NCBI GenBank assembly: GCA_017442875.1
Contig: JAFSPN010000066.1
Location: 1-47,982, forward strand
Length of the DNA: 47,982 nt
Reading direction: 5' to 3'
Source of the DNA: Bacilli bacterium
GTDB lineage: Bacteria; Bacillota_I; Bacilli_A; RFN20; CAG-826
Numbering within the stretch: the stretch's first letter is position 1; each line of letters begins with the position of its first letter. The position numbers and the translations under genes were made by a program. This document shows positions 20,334-25,115 of this stretch, in pieces. The notes below the pieces were generated by a model that saw only the letters and a program-made list of their open reading frames with translations, was not told the DNA's origin and did no database searches.

Positions 20334-20358
20334 ATCCTCTTTATAAAAATGATTATTT

Positions 20359-20376
20359 TGATATAATTATGATATA
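20359..20376 (+). promoter_or_regulatory. extended -10 promoter and possible operator of the toxin-antitoxin pair
   Basis: TGATATAAT (TG at 20359, TATAAT at 20362-20367) is an extended -10. The sequence TGATATA recurs 11 bp later (20370-20376), giving direct repeats that overlap the promoter, the usual place for autoregulation by a Phd/YefM antitoxin. GGAGG (20379 on) serves the ATG at 20389. Confidence 0.45.
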
Positions 20377-20388
20377 TGGAGGCATATT

Positions 20389-20637
20389 ATGGCAATTATT
20401 AGACCAAGTGCAGATTTAAGAAATCATTATCAAGAAATTAGCGAAATATGCAAAACAACTAATCAGCCAGTCTACATTACAGTAAATGGCAAAGAAGACA
20501 CTGCCATTATCGCTAGTGATGCTTTAGATGAGCTTTATCGCACAATAAAACTTATGCAAGAAATCAACCAAGGTATTGCTGATGTGCAAAATGGTAGATT
20601 GATTTCGTTAGAAGATGCGAAAAAGAAGCTATTATGA
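20389..20637 (+). CDS. Phd/YefM-family antitoxin
   Basis: 82 residues. The N-terminal half (RPSADLRNHYQEISEICK, then QPVYITVNGKEDTAIIAS) is the Phd/YefM fold: it dimerises and binds operator DNA. The C-terminal part (from about residue 55) is a charged helix that would bind the toxin. Good GGAGG ribosome site. The stop overlaps the following ATG by four bases (ATGA at 20634-20637), so the pair is coupled, antitoxin first. Confidence in the family is high; the antitoxin role rests on the partner's N-terminal domain. Confidence 0.88.
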   Translation: MAIIRPSADLRNHYQEISEICKTTNQPVYITVNGKEDTAIIASDALDELYRTIKLMQEINQGIADVQNGRLISLEDAKKKLL

Positions 20638-21470
20638 AATATCCAATAGTTTTAACTGATAGTGCTTTTCGAGATTTAGAAGAAATTAGAAATTATATAG
20701 CAATAGATAATCCGATAAATGCTAAACATTATCTTCAAGGGATCTTTGATCGTCTAAATAGTCTTTCTTTTTTTCCTAAATTAGGTAAACGTATAGAAAA
20801 TGCCATTTTTGTGTATGCAGATTCTTTATATCTCCCAGTTATGAATCATGTTGCCATCTATCAAATAAACAAAAAAGCTAATATCATTTATGTTTTAAGA
20901 GTGTTGTCCCATTTTCAAGACTGGCACAATATTTTTAATAAAGAAAATATTTCTAAAAAAGAAATAATAGCATCAAATGACCGCATTTCTCTAATTCGCA
21001 TAAATCAAAGTATGGTCTATGACATTTGGCGGAATTCTCTCGATGAAGATAATCGCAAGTATGTTCCTGATGAAGTGTTTGAAAGTTTGCAAGAGGCTTC
21101 AGACGTCGTTGATCAGATTATTATTAATTATGAATCTCAGGATGGCCCGTTTGTTTATGCTATTTTCCGTAACAAAGACCAGATGAATATGGGCTATGTA
21201 CAAATGGTTAAAACAAAGGGTGTTTATGAAATTGGATATCATATTTATAAACCATTTACTAGAAAAAACTATGCTACTGAAGCAGTAAATATTTTTTTAG
21301 AATATCTAAAAGACAATACAGTATTAAAAGAAATATATGGTATTGCTTTAGCGGTCAATAAAGCTAGCCGTAGAGTTTTAGAAAAAACAGGCTTTAAGCT
21401 AATATATGAAGGTCTTGATATATACCAAGGTAGCAAAAGAAAGGTTGTTAAAATGGTAAAAGCAGTTTAG
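20634..21470 (+). CDS. ParE/RelE-type toxin fused to a GNAT acetyltransferase domain
   Basis: 278 residues in one uninterrupted frame. Residues 1-100 are a ParE/RelE-like toxin: VLTDSAFRDLEEIRNYIA, helix pair, then IYVLRVLSHFQDW, the usual end of ParE proteins. Residues about 118-278 resemble a RimJ/RimL-type GNAT: a motif-A-like stretch FTRKNYATEAV, and the NKASRRVLEKTGFK helix common to this group. In the acetyl-CoA loop the usual G-K-G-Y-A is R-K-N-Y-A, so a glycine is replaced by Asn; activity is uncertain. ParE toxins hit gyrase, RelE toxins cut mRNA, and separate GNAT toxins (TacT, AtaT) acetylate aminoacyl-tRNA; the fused combination is unusual. A terminator overlaps the 3' end. Confidence 0.8.
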   Translation: MKYPIVLTDSAFRDLEEIRNYIAIDNPINAKHYLQGIFDRLNSLSFFPKLGKRIENAIFVYADSLYLPVMNHVAIYQINKKANIIYVLRVLSHFQDWHNIFNKENISKKEIIASNDRISLIRINQSMVYDIWRNSLDEDNRKYVPDEVFESLQEASDVVDQIIINYESQDGPFVYAIFRNKDQMNMGYVQMVKTKGVYEIGYHIYKPFTRKNYATEAVNIFLEYLKDNTVLKEIYGIALAVNKASRRVLEKTGFKLIYEGLDIYQGSKRKVVKMVKAV

Positions 21471-21490
21471 TATTGCTGCTTTTCTTTTTA
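21458..21490 (+). terminator. terminator of the toxin-antitoxin operon
   Basis: AAAAGCAG (21458-21465) pairs with CTGCTTTT (21476-21483) around a loop holding the stop codon; a T-rich run follows. Confidence 0.7.
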
Positions 21491-21690
21491 CATTTTATAG
21501 ATTCTTCTCGCTAGAAGTATCACTTTAATAAAAAAGTGATAAGAGTCTATATGACTCATAATAGATTTGGCAAATCATAACGATCTACAGCGGACATAAA
21601 GATTTTTGCTGGTATTTATTAAAATACCTGTCATAATGGAGATAGACAAGTGTCCTTTCCAATCAATTTGATAGAAAGTTTTTAGTATAC
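21491..21690 (+). other. intergenic region with several hairpins upstream of the zinc-ribbon operon
   Basis: No coding frame is seen. Inverted repeats: TATCACTTT (21518-21526) with AAAGTGATA (21533-21541); GAGTC/GACTC near 21543-21557; GATTTG/CAAATC near 21565-21577; GGTATTT/AAATACC near 21611-21628. GGACA near 21593 can also pair with TGTCC near 21651, enclosing the last hairpin. It may be a folded leader, a small RNA or operator clusters; none of the known riboswitch cores was recognised. Confidence 0.35.
21669..21677 (+). promoter_or_regulatory. possible extended -10 promoter of the zinc-ribbon operon
   Basis: TGATAGAAA (TG at 21669, -10 TAGAAA at 21672-21677) would start transcription near 21684, leaving only about 8 nt before the ATG at 21693 and no ribosome site. 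A TATACT at 21686 is too close to the ATG to serve. Confidence 0.3.
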
Positions 21691-21692
21691 TT

Positions 21693-22688
21693 ATGAAACC
21701 TACGCCTAAATTTTGTGTTCACTGTGGATCTCCAATTAAACCAGGAGAACAGTTTTGCATGCATTGTGGTGCTCAATTAGTGAAAAATCTTTATGACCAA
21801 ACACCAATTGAACCCACTGAAGTTAAGCCAACTGAAATCAAACCAACCGAAATCAAACCGACAGAAATCAAACCAACTGAAATAAAGCCGACAGAAATCA
21901 AACCTACAGAGATCGAACCGACTAAGATAGAACCAACAAACATAGAGCCTACTCCAATTGAACCAACACCTATAAAACCAGGTGTATTTAATAACAGGTT
22001 CTTCATGTTCTTTATCAGCCCAAATATTCTTATTTGGGGAATAATTGCTTTAGCATCAACAGTTTTCTTCATGTTTAGTGTGGGACTAGGCGGTTTTAAA
22101 TGGTGGAATGTATTCCCGCTTCTCATCATGTTAGGATCAATATTCGAAGTTGTCTGGGGCATTGTTAAAGCACCAGTGGAAAAGACAAACACTGATGGTT
22201 CACCAAAGAGCAAAGGCAAAATCCTTGTCGACAAGATGAAATATTTAGTGAAAGGCAATGGCCCAAAACCAACCCCAAAGAACTTAGTGGGCGGAATTGC
22301 TGGTGCTACCGCTGCGATAGCGTTATCGTTCTTTTTGCTTATTTCATTATCCATGGGCTTTAAGAACTTTATTGTTTTGGATGGATACACGTTTAAAGAT
22401 TCATTTTCCAACCAAGGTTATAATCCTGAAACAGACTACCGACTCGTGTCGTTCTATTCTGGATATAAAGCACGCGAAACAATAATTTTAAACGGAGAAG
22501 TTAAATTCCAAGTTTCTGGTTCATATTGGAGAATTGGTAATGACTGTGGTCTTAAATGCAAAACTTTAGAAAAAGGCGAATGGGGCTTTTGGGGATATGA
22601 CGAAACTTGGGGTTCCACCCTTAACTTCGAAATTAAGAGTTATAAAGAATTAAGAAGTGGAAACGTACCCTTCTACAGGACGGTCTAA
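21693..22688 (+). CDS. zinc-ribbon membrane protein with PTEIK repeat linker
   Basis: 331 residues. Starts with a four-Cys zinc ribbon (C8, C11, C22, C25). A linker of eleven five-residue units follows (PTEIK and variants, about 40-96), then about three membrane helices (around 103-160 and 203-225) and a 100-residue C-terminal part without helices, probably outside. I do not recognise the outer domain. First gene of a four-gene operon of membrane proteins; the next gene starts 2 nt after its stop. Zinc ribbon plus membrane segments is common in uncharacterised Firmicutes proteins; no function is assigned. No ribosome site is clear at the start. Confidence 0.75.
   Translation: MKPTPKFCVHCGSPIKPGEQFCMHCGAQLVKNLYDQTPIEPTEVKPTEIKPTEIKPTEIKPTEIKPTEIKPTEIEPTKIEPTNIEPTPIEPTPIKPGVFNNRFFMFFISPNILIWGIIALASTVFFMFSVGLGGFKWWNVFPLLIMLGSIFEVVWGIVKAPVEKTNTDGSPKSKGKILVDKMKYLVKGNGPKPTPKNLVGGIAGATAAIALSFFLLISLSMGFKNFIVLDGYTFKDSFSNQGYNPETDYRLVSFYSGYKARETIILNGEVKFQVSGSYWRIGNDCGLKCKTLEKGEWGFWGYDETWGSTLNFEIKSYKELRSGNVPFYRTV
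21804..21980 (+). repeat. 15-bp in-frame tandem repeat coding PTEIK-type units
   Basis: About eleven units of 15 bp (consensus CCAACTGAAATCAAA) with drift at wobble positions and towards the 3' end. Encodes a proline-rich, alternately charged stiff linker between zinc ribbon and membrane. Unit number is likely to vary among strains. Confidence 0.85.
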
Positions 22689-22690
22689 TT

Positions 22691-23143
22691 ATGAACTTTA
22701 ATAGTGGATCTCGTTTAGTGTTTATTATATTTATTATCGCTATAGCGATACTATTAGCGTTGCTCATTGTCTTTGCGATTATTTCAAAGAAAAAGAATAA
22801 AGTGCCAGTGGTTTTAAAAGCATTAACTATTGTTGCCTCTTTAATTGTGGTTGCTGGCTGTTTTGTCTTTCCGCTTTCCTACTATGGGGATATTCCTTTA
22901 AACCTCCAATATGGCAAGTTTATTGCCTATAATTCCGATAATTATTTAAATGTTCATAGAGATAGTGTGAGCCTTCATATTGATGGAGCATCACAAGGCT
23001 TAAAAGGTACATATACATTAAGAAATGATGTTTTAGAAATTACTTATCAAGACGGCACCAAAGATAAGTTCGTCGTAAAGCATTTCGGCCGTGAACTAGT
23101 GGACGCTGAAACAAATAATAAAGCGTACGAATATAAAGGATAG
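22691..23143 (+). CDS. small two-helix membrane protein of the zinc-ribbon operon
   Basis: 150 residues. Two membrane helices (about 8-31 and 42-66) with a short basic loop (KKKNK) between them, then about 84 residues, probably outside, rich in beta-type segments (SVSLHIDG, GTYTLRNDVLEITYQDG). The outer part looks like a small lipocalin-like or DUF-type beta domain seen in Firmicutes proteins that test a default value; I do not recognise it with confidence. Between two zinc-ribbon genes with gaps of 2 and 3 nt, so one operon. It is the only member without a zinc ribbon. Confidence 0.7.
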   Translation: MNFNSGSRLVFIIFIIAIAILLALLIVFAIISKKKNKVPVVLKALTIVASLIVVAGCFVFPLSYYGDIPLNLQYGKFIAYNSDNYLNVHRDSVSLHIDGASQGLKGTYTLRNDVLEITYQDGTKDKFVVKHFGRELVDAETNNKAYEYKG

Positions 23144-23146
23144 ATT

Positions 23147-24169
23147 ATGAAGTTTTGCGCGTATTGTGGTGCCAAGTTAGAAGATGATGCAAAGTTCTGC
23201 CTTTCATGTGGCGAAAAGTGCGTCGAGTTTTTAGATGAAAACGAAGAACCTTCTTTAGAAGAACCTAACTTAGAAGAAGAAAATAAAGCCCAAGAAGAGG
23301 CTGAAAGATTAGAACAAGAAAGACTAGCTGAAAAAGCTCGTTTAAAAGCGGAAGAAGAGGCTAGGCTGGAAGAGGAACGTCTCGCTAAAGAGCAAGAAGA
23401 AAGAAAAGTAAAAGAAGAAGCGGAACGCTTAGAACAAGAGCGTCTCGAACAAGAGAGGCTAGAAGCTGAGCGCCTTGAACAAGAACGCCTTGAGCAGGAA
23501 AGGTTAGAACAAGAACGCCTTGAAGCCGAACGTCTTGAGCAAGAGCGTTTAGAACAGGAGAGACTAGAGCAAGAAAGATTAGAAGCTGAACGCCTTGAAC
23601 AGGAAAAATTAGAACAAGAAAAACTTGCCAAAGAAGAAGCGGAACACCAAGAACAAGAACGCTTAGCGGAACTTCAAAAGAAAGAACAAGAAAACAAAAA
23701 GGTTTCCGAACTAGAAGAGGAAATCGCTTCGTTAAAAGCCCAGTTAGCCAAGGCTCAACAAGGACAAAAAAATGAAGTTGTTGAAGAAGGTCTACTTTTA
23801 CAAGAGCCTGAAAGAGAAGAACCGCTTTTAGATGAACCTGATGAAGAAGAGAATCTCTTAAATGAAACTCTGTTGGAAGATAAAAAGAGAAACAACTTTG
23901 TTTTACCGCTTGTGGCTTTAACTATTTCGTTAGTATCAGCGGTAGCCTACTTATTAATCAAAGACCTTTTCAATTTGAGCATCATTATCTTTGGTGTTAG
24001 TGCGACTATAGTGCTCTTCACATTGATTAGTTCTTTTGTCGTTTTAGGGAATCGTAAAATTAGCAAAAATACCAAATGGCTTTGCATCATCAACATCCTA
24101 TGTTGTATTGGTTTAATTGCCTTCTTGGTTATCACCTGGGCAGGTACATACCCAGGAGGAGGAAAATAA
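23147..24169 (+). CDS. zinc-ribbon protein with long coiled coil and C-terminal membrane helices
   Basis: 340 residues. Four-Cys zinc ribbon (C4, C7, C18, C21), acidic spacer, a charged coiled coil (about 45-205) built largely of LEQER and LEAER units, a second acidic spacer ([13 protein letters not shown]), then three membrane helices (about 249-267, 270-297, 310-332) and the tail GGGK. The regular charged coil would be a rigid rod or single alpha-helix lifting the zinc ribbon from the membrane, presumably in the cytoplasm. No enzyme motif. Its last codons carry the AGGAGGAGG that serves as ribosome site for the next gene. Confidence 0.75.
23429..23623 (+). repeat. in-frame repeat coding [10 protein letters not shown] coil
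   Basis: Thirteen 15-bp units; a 60-bp (20-residue) super-repeat of three LEQER and one LEAER is visible. Synonymous codons vary between units, so the protein pattern is selected more strongly than the DNA. Confidence 0.8.
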
Positions 24170-24170
24170 T

Positions 24171-25028
24171 ATGAAATATTGCCCAAACTGTGGAGCGCAG
24201 CTTCCAGATGAAGCACGCTTTTGCACGAGGTGTGGCGCCAAACAGCCAGATGCTGAAGCAATTCCACAATCTCAACCAGCTCAACCAGTAGCAGCTCAAC
24301 CAGTAGCAGCTCAACCAGTTAACGGACAAAAGAGTCCAAGAGAAAGATATAACGATTTAGTGAAAAACGACGAAGTGTTTAGAGAAATCGTCACAGTTCG
24401 CAGAAAGAAGTATTTGTTTGAACTCATCTTTGCGGTGGCCTTCATCTCTTGGCTTGTTTGTATGTTTGTTCCGGTCGCTTTATATAACGGCATTGACGCG
24501 ACAAGCGAAGGCGCGATGATTATGAACTCACTTGGTAAAACGTTGCCTCATAAAACATGTGCCTATGATTTAATCGCTCTTGCTGCGGCAGCGGGAAATA
24601 GATCTTTAAATCCAAGTGGTCTTACTTCAGCGTTTGCCACGATGTTTATGATTCTTGGCCCAATAATGACTGCTGTCACTATTGCCTTACCGCTTATTAA
24701 AGCATTCACTGGTAGGGGATATGTTTTAAAAACATATGAAGAAGGTAAAGTTAAACAATTAATCAAAGAAACCGTCAGTCCGTTCTGGGTAGGTGGTGCT
24801 TTTAGCTTCATTATGATTGTTCCTGCTTTAAACTTATTCTTATCCGCTAACGGCGAAAAATATGATGATGGTAAAACGTATTTATATGGCCACATTGAAG
24901 GTAACCCTTCTGGCTTTATCGCTGTCTTAGTGGTAGTCATTCTTTTGACTGGCTTATCCATAGCCGCTACCGCGGTTATTGGTAACATTCTTTCTAAGAA
25001 ACTAAAAGAATACGCCAAGAATATGTAA
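24171..25028 (+). CDS. zinc-ribbon membrane protein with QPVAA linker
   Basis: 285 residues. Four-Cys zinc ribbon (C4, C7, C18, C21), a short QPAQPVAAQPVAAQPV linker, a charged segment (SPRERYNDLVKNDEVFREIVTVRRKK), then four membrane helices (about 82-103, 158-182, 207-228, 253-278). ATG 24171 is used: it begins the zinc ribbon and has AGGAGGAGG directly upstream; a longer frame into the previous gene has no such support. Fourth and last gene of the operon, followed by a terminator. Function unknown; its membrane part does not match a transporter family I know. Confidence 0.77.
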   Translation: MKYCPNCGAQLPDEARFCTRCGAKQPDAEAIPQSQPAQPVAAQPVAAQPVNGQKSPRERYNDLVKNDEVFREIVTVRRKKYLFELIFAVAFISWLVCMFVPVALYNGIDATSEGAMIMNSLGKTLPHKTCAYDLIALAAAAGNRSLNPSGLTSAFATMFMILGPIMTAVTIALPLIKAFTGRGYVLKTYEEGKVKQLIKETVSPFWVGGAFSFIMIVPALNLFLSANGEKYDDGKTYLYGHIEGNPSGFIAVLVVVILLTGLSIAATAVIGNILSKKLKEYAKNM

Positions 25029-25035
25029 AATAATG

Positions 25036-25068
25036 AGGTGTTTGATAATTCAAACATCTTTTTATTTT
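25036..25068 (+). terminator. terminator of the zinc-ribbon operon
   Basis: AGGTGTTTG (25036-25044) pairs with CAAACATCT (25051-25059) with one G-U pair and a 6-nt loop, then a T-rich run. Confidence 0.8.
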
Positions 25069-25094
25069 GCTTAAACGCGTATGCGTGATAGAAT
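25067..25094 (+). promoter_or_regulatory. plsX promoter
   Basis: TTGCTT (25067-25072), 16-nt spacer, extended -10 TGATAGAAT with TAGAAT at 25089-25094. GAGG (25103-25106) is the ribosome site for ATG 25116. The -35 overlaps the end of the preceding terminator. No FapR-type operator was recognised. Confidence 0.5.
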
Positions 25095-25115
25095 ATCGTC
25101 ACGAGGCTTATAACT

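Follow-up and report, generated by a model that had tools for sequence, protein, structure and literature searches.

An operon of four genes, named ZR1, TM2, ZR3 and ZR4, occupies positions 21693-25028 on the plus strand of a 47,982-nucleotide (nt) stretch of a Bacilli genome (contig JAFSPN010000066.1; the whole stretch is hereafter called the window), with gaps of only 2, 3 and 1 nt between its genes. The central finding is that TM2, which encodes a membrane protein without a zinc ribbon, is followed directly by a ribbon gene at every place at which it was recognized. The set is read here as a modular transmembrane sensor or adaptor, in which outer binding domains would be coupled to cytosolic zinc-ribbon docking sites, and a probability of about 0.42 is assigned to this reading. 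These gene names, together with ZRh, ZRs and BigSec for members of related sets, were coined in this analysis; a literature search, with most subscription journals outside its coverage, found no paper on the gene set.

Pairing of TM2 with ribbon genes

Because TM2 carries no ribbon, its neighbours provide a fair test of the claim, made in an earlier note on this DNA, that the four genes belong together. A TM2 profile (search model A4), built from the sequences of the window and of genome G038, was searched in 279 genomes of the order and located TM2 at nine places in eight genomes, the window included. At all nine, a ribbon gene on the same strand lies directly downstream, so the TM2 homologues are not scattered singly; this pairing, together with four-gene versions containing other members in three other genomes, supports the earlier claim. 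The junctions are tight, with gaps of 3 nt in the window, 1 nt in G038, 4 nt in G224 and 7 nt in G175, a 4-nt overlap in G162, and a 1-nt overlap (TAATG) at the remaining four places (G237, two copies in G240, and G241). Seven of the nine places are independent of the search model. Since the carriers fall in five genera, namely g1 (the window), g8, g18 (two genomes), g23 and g25 (three genomes with four copies), the independent count is nearer to five or six than to nine.

The reverse search, made with a profile of the ZR3 helix part, returned eight strong places (E below 1e-30), each preceded by TM2; since six of them had gone into that profile, the search shows only that it turned up no further close ZR3 lacking TM2. 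Ten of the 16 weaker places listed were opened and rejected, none of them having a CxxC-x8-14-CxxC ribbon; in one of them, L250, two CxxC pairs at a wider spacing stand at the start. The ZR3 of G175 is truncated by the end of its contig. A search of 96 family genomes with the single TM2 sequence yielded, besides the window, just one match, in G020, which was discarded as falling in an unrelated protein.

The relatives show how the set is reshuffled. G162, G224 and G175 carry the order BigSec-ZRs-TM2-ZR3, and locus L109 of Acholeplasmatales bacterium RUI103 carries BigSec-ZRh-ZR4. In genus g25 (G237, G240 and G241), a ribbon protein, TM2 and ZR3 are encoded between conserved neighbours, which we take to be a fatty-acid-kinase region and CNNM-type genes. 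The TM2 relative in G038 is 26% identical over 147 residues (E 1e-5), and full-length relatives of ZR4 occur in G038 (40%) and L109 (32%). With a profile made from the membrane part of ZR4, four of the 279 genomes were matched, two of them (G220 and G186) new; at L199:2673-3529 in G220, the relative is split between two frames, with the ribbon part and the membrane part as separate open reading frames (ORFs). A supposed ZR1 relative in G020 (E 1.3e-11) was rejected, as the match consists mostly of a PTEIK-like spacer with an in-frame stop and no ribbon, and the part after the stop was left unaligned by BLASTP. The ZRh proteins of L109 and G038 are 34% identical, and ZRs of G175 matches ZRh at 24% (E 2e-10), ribbon included. 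The BigSec proteins are related at 26% over 494 columns between G038 and L109, 40% between G224 and G162, and 21% (E 3e-8) between G162 and G038. Their outer part was compared with DUF6273 (Pfam cut-off 23.5 bits), scoring 23.6 bits in G162 and 19.5 bits in G038 with no match in L109; this family is described as resembling the C-type lectin domain in passages of PMC10743442, and its presence in phage receptor-binding proteins is mentioned in passages of PMC10743442 and PMC11792537. The set is thus a group of rare, modular and relocating pairs of an outer-domain protein and a ribbon protein.

Zn_Ribbon_1 genes are widespread in the family, occurring in 76 of the 96 genomes sampled. Among the 150 matches listed, at least 126 ribbon genes in 63 genomes form at least 17 neighbouring pairs within 4 kb, compared with 0.7 expected and at most five in 2000 trials of random placement, a model that ignores contig breaks and duplication. 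Tandem ribbon genes are therefore a general habit in the family, which invites the explanation that unlinked small ribbon-membrane proteins simply accumulate in tandem without a joint function. We consider this very improbable for the present set: TM2 is ribbon-free and yet adjoins a ribbon gene throughout, and ordered pairs recur across genera. Some of the ribbon clusters that were opened are of quite different kinds; at L203:8172-10353, a ribbon protein gene lies beside a gene for a product of 437 amino acids, presumably SPFH-like by eye. Membrane ribbon proteins are thus widespread in these reduced Bacilli without an assigned function, and the TM2-ribbon pairing offers a concrete pair for testing, names the proteins to co-express and provides a way into finding the binding partners of membrane zinc ribbons.

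Proteins, spacers and proposed mode of action

The composition described in the earlier note was borne out, three proteins beginning with a CxxC-x10-CxxC ribbon and the fourth consisting of two helices plus a beta domain on the outside. ZR1 (21693-22688, plus strand; 331 amino acids) consists of a zinc ribbon, a proline-rich spacer of PTEIK repeats, three transmembrane helices and a C-terminal part rich in beta structure, for which loop charge indicates an outside location. TM2 (22691-23143, plus strand; 150 amino acids), the marker gene of the set, encodes two transmembrane helices followed by the outer beta domain. ZR3 (23147-24169, plus strand; 340 amino acids) joins its ribbon to three transmembrane helices by a charged (LEQER) spacer of 231 residues, and ZR4 (24171-25028, plus strand; 285 amino acids) has a ribbon, a short QPVAA spacer, a conserved SPRERY region and four transmembrane helices; its start is taken as the ATG at 24171, internal to the listed ORF 24117-25028. 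The ribbon motifs are CVHC-x10-CMHC in ZR1, CAYC-x10-CLSC in ZR3 and CPNC-x10-CTRC in ZR4, with Zn_Ribbon_1 (PF13240) scores of 34.3, 29.8 and 40.4 bits, respectively, all above the Pfam cut-off of 25, and the three account for all but one of the only four Zn_Ribbon_1 matches in the 1.32-Mb genome. The fourth match (L075:2786-6202, contig C47) falls within an ABC-transporter-like protein of 1138 amino acids, where it separates the ATPase part from the permease part.

Topology was assigned by hydropathy and loop charge, without a trained predictor and with the ribbons taken as inside. Lysine and arginine are richer in inside than in outside loops when the N-terminus is placed inside for ZR1, ZR3 and ZR4 and outside for TM2; these loop charges would put the beta regions of both ZR1 and TM2 on the outer side of the membrane, where ZR3 and ZR4 would have little protein. 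A single-sequence model of TM2 gave the two helices and eight short strands at a mean predicted local distance difference test (pLDDT) score of 67, and the best match of its outer domain in the PDB (Z 6.3, root-mean-square deviation 2.4, 63 aligned residues) lies within the range of common arrangements. The same holds for the membrane part of the ZR4 model (mean pLDDT 61), with a best Z of 7.3, a root-mean-square deviation of 7.2 and 174 aligned residues; no listed family stands out in the fold comparison of the two models. Among the sequences of solved structures, ZR1 gave weak ribbon or spacer matches to ArnA-type chains and TM2 gave matches at chance level, and a lipocalin-like nature of the outer parts was discarded because the matches were weak (Lipocalin_4, E 0.012, below cut-off).

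The three spacers are built from unlike repeats: six PTEI[KE] units in ZR1, eleven LEQE[RK] units within a longer charged stretch in ZR3, and two QPVAA units with a partial third in ZR4. In the DNA, the first two correspond to 15-nt-period tracts at 21811-21980 and at 23416-23641, the latter with scrambled synonymous codons, and the third to an exact 15-nt tandem repeat of 2.9 copies at 24277-24319, all on the plus strand. Synonymous codons agree at 0.44 among the eleven LEQE[RK] units, below the 0.61 of independent draws from the codon use of the window, and at 0.49 versus 0.50 among the PTEI[KE] units; because agreement is at or under that of independent draws, both tracts look old and maintained as protein. 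Since the QPVAA copies do not differ at the DNA level, that tract looks recent.

The earlier note had proposed that the ribbons are held at set distances from the membrane. This idea fails for the ZR1-position spacers (86 versus 46 residues) and for the ZR4-type spacers (63, 61, 106 and 59 residues), whose lengths vary, and survives at most for ZR3, whose eight copies, four of them contributed by genus g25, have roughly constant spacers of 231, 214, 181, 194, 194, 193, 202 and 193 residues. The ZR3 spacer of the window shows the i,i+4 excess of charge pairs over shuffles by which ER/K single alpha helices are recognized, although modestly (0.17 vs 0.13, standard deviation 0.02); acid-base pairs exceed shuffles in seven of the eight copies, reaching 0.31-0.36 against 0.18-0.23 in the six others. 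The LEQER units are spaced five residues apart, so that their leucines form no heptad stripe, and in none of the ZR3 copies did hydrophobicity peak close to 3.5 residues per turn. With its amino acids retained despite scrambled codons, this spacer lends itself naturally to asking if long charged helices serve bacteria as spacers. Across seven pairs of ZR3 copies, identity is 57-81% in the ribbon and 23-51% in the membrane part, the spacer identities being inflated by low complexity. Ribbon similarity is also higher within spacer classes (long, ZR3 and ZRh; short, ZR4 and ZRs) than between them, at 0.61 versus 0.51, a difference reached by two of 5000 label shuffles with near-identical g25 rows dropped and relatedness left uncorrected, which suggests that long- and short-spacer ribbons have distinct roles.

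A possible mode of action can be proposed. The basic unit would be an outer-domain protein (TM2 here, BigSec in relatives) paired with a ribbon protein (ZR3 here, ZRh or ZRs in relatives), to which ZR1 and ZR4 would be extra, and it is plausible that the four proteins form one complex. With the ribbons in the cytosol and the beta or lectin parts outside, the partners of a pair may bind one another via their helices, and the outer domains may bind a ligand or a component of the wall or surface. Such binding could alter or position the complex, whereupon the cytosolic ribbons would dock a soluble partner. At a helix rise of 0.15 nm per residue, the ZR3 ribbon would reach furthest, about 25-35 nm if the spacer forms one helix, whereas the ribbons of ZR1 and ZR4 would stay near the membrane. 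A bolder version, which we hold to be rather unlikely, is that the interchangeable pairs constitute a new kind of bacterial transmembrane adaptor. A charged boom some 200 residues long (about 30 nm if helical) could carry the ribbon of one subunit well into the cytosol, and the set would thereby act as a ruler or tether linking the envelope to a cytosolic structure.

Several observations weigh against the sensor or adaptor reading. In G038, the parts lie at three separate loci (BigSec-ZRh, TM2-ZR3 and ZR4), and relatives of ZR4 occur alone in G038, G186 and G220. ZR1 resembles the protein that comes first in the g25 set in plan and position, but BLASTP aligns the two in the ribbon only (E 0.002). 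The window operon is without BigSec and therefore lacks the lectin-fold ectodomain. In G038, the spacer of ZR3 is acidic, does not resemble a helix and has salt bridges no more often than its shuffles (0.08 in both), which means that a rigid helix does not hold for every copy. Furthermore, the set is rare, being confined to the eight carriers in the order and, in a class-wide TM2 search, to the window's own genome among 395, and all carriers are draft, metagenome-type assemblies.

The recG-plsX slot

The earlier note had also described the operon as residing in a conserved locus. The flanking recG-plsX pair is indeed conserved, but among the 15 other genomes of the genus, 13 of which have a plsX ortholog with a readable adjoining recG, none of these 13 has the four genes in that gap. 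At these sister loci (L062-L074), the gap measures about 90-120 nt in seven genomes and about 600-1500 nt, with other genes, in the other six, where it holds a gene that we take to be mutarotase-like, a gene for a one-helix protein, or both. In the window it extends over 4.8 kb (20334-25115) and also contains, at 20389-21470, a Phd-type antitoxin gene followed by a single ORF that fuses a ParE toxin (residues 5-97) to a GNAT acetyltransferase (residues 137-255), a fusion that seems unusual. Although its flanking genes are conserved, the gap is thus a variable slot and no conserved home of the operon.

Such a setting, just downstream of a toxin-antitoxin pair, would suit accessory cargo for competition or defence that guards the surface against phages or neighbours, as would the patchy distribution of the set and the relatedness of the BigSec outer domain to the family reported from variable phage receptor-binding proteins. 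We nevertheless regard this explanation as distinctly unlikely, because PADLOC models gave no match at E 0.01 for the four window proteins, the other loci of the set adjoin ordinary genes, and no nuclease, NTPase or toxin domain was matched in the set. The BigSec of L109 gave one weak PADLOC match (E 0.0033). A phage origin was rejected, as viral contigs yielded only ribbon-level matches to ZR4 (seven loci, 32-49% over fewer than 60 residues).

Two terminator-like hairpins on the plus strand, one upstream (21458-21483) and one downstream (25035-25060), bound the operon, hairpins found by such sequence scans being weak evidence. The 222-nt leader (21471-21692, plus strand) is a chain of predicted hairpins that folds better than shuffles (z -2.7; two of 200 shuffles equally good), and it is present in one of the 16 genomes of the genus, the window's own. 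It may be a structured RNA, but no Rfam model matched above cut-off, the best being a microRNA model far below, and the 15 sister genomes have no copy. An inverted repeat of 16 nt at 94% (21592-21607 and 21783-21798) links the leader with codons where the ZR1 spacer begins, through which pairing between leader and coding region would be possible.

Comparison with known systems

Proteins of the YvbJ type presumably share the plan of an N-terminal ribbon, a membrane span and an outer part. The same plan is seen in Staphylococcus aureus TcaA, which in passages of PMC10328498 is modelled as a single-span membrane protein that lies mostly outside, its zinc finger being intracellular, and is described as affecting the retention of wall teichoic acid. 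The operon might accordingly encode an envelope-assembly factor of the TcaA/YvbJ sort, with the ribbon inside in a regulatory role and the outer parts working on wall or surface polymers; the topology and role of TcaA speak for this, and ZR1 has the same order of ribbon, membrane and outside part. On the other hand, TcaA and YvbJ have one span and a large ectodomain, whereas the window set has three or four spans and operon partners, and neither ZR3 nor ZR4 has much protein on the outer side of the membrane. The TcaA model NF053815 of NCBIfam, with a cut-off of 550 bits, matches ZR4 at only 12.3 bits and over the ribbon alone (residues 1-30), and we judge this explanation unlikely.

The two-gene Skillet-2 Lipocone system, as outlined in passages of PMC12419801, resembles the set in that a gene for a membrane domain adjoins one for a single-span protein with a cytoplasmic ribbon joined to a helix. 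The partner there is a Lipocone domain, and the Pfam scan of the window proteins reported no such domain. With Zn_Ribbon_1 (PF13240) proteins at large, the set shares the ribbon, and the family name gives no function.

The PspA-YdjGHI system provides the precedent for the adaptor reading, because YdjG and YdjH of Bacillus subtilis are needed to recruit YdjI and PspA to the membrane (passages of PMC8581546). There, cytosolic partners are kept at the membrane by two membrane proteins encoded in one operon, the ribbon-bearing YdjG, with two ribbons (passages of PMC11237479), and YdjH, which contains a low-complexity segment or a long coiled coil (PMC8581546, PMC11237479); the window operon likewise encodes ribbon membrane proteins beside another membrane protein. 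The window set differs in its outer domains and in having three ribbon proteins rather than one membrane ribbon protein, and Pfam gave no SPFH/band-7 match in the four operon proteins or in the two encoded upstream. Moreover, it is placed outside the PspA-YdjGHI system because no PspA scored over the Pfam cut-off in any of the 279 genomes of the order, where five weak matches lay below it and the B. subtilis control was positive. The best reading would be that the set works like YdjG and YdjH, holding a cytosolic partner at the membrane, yet is no member of their system.

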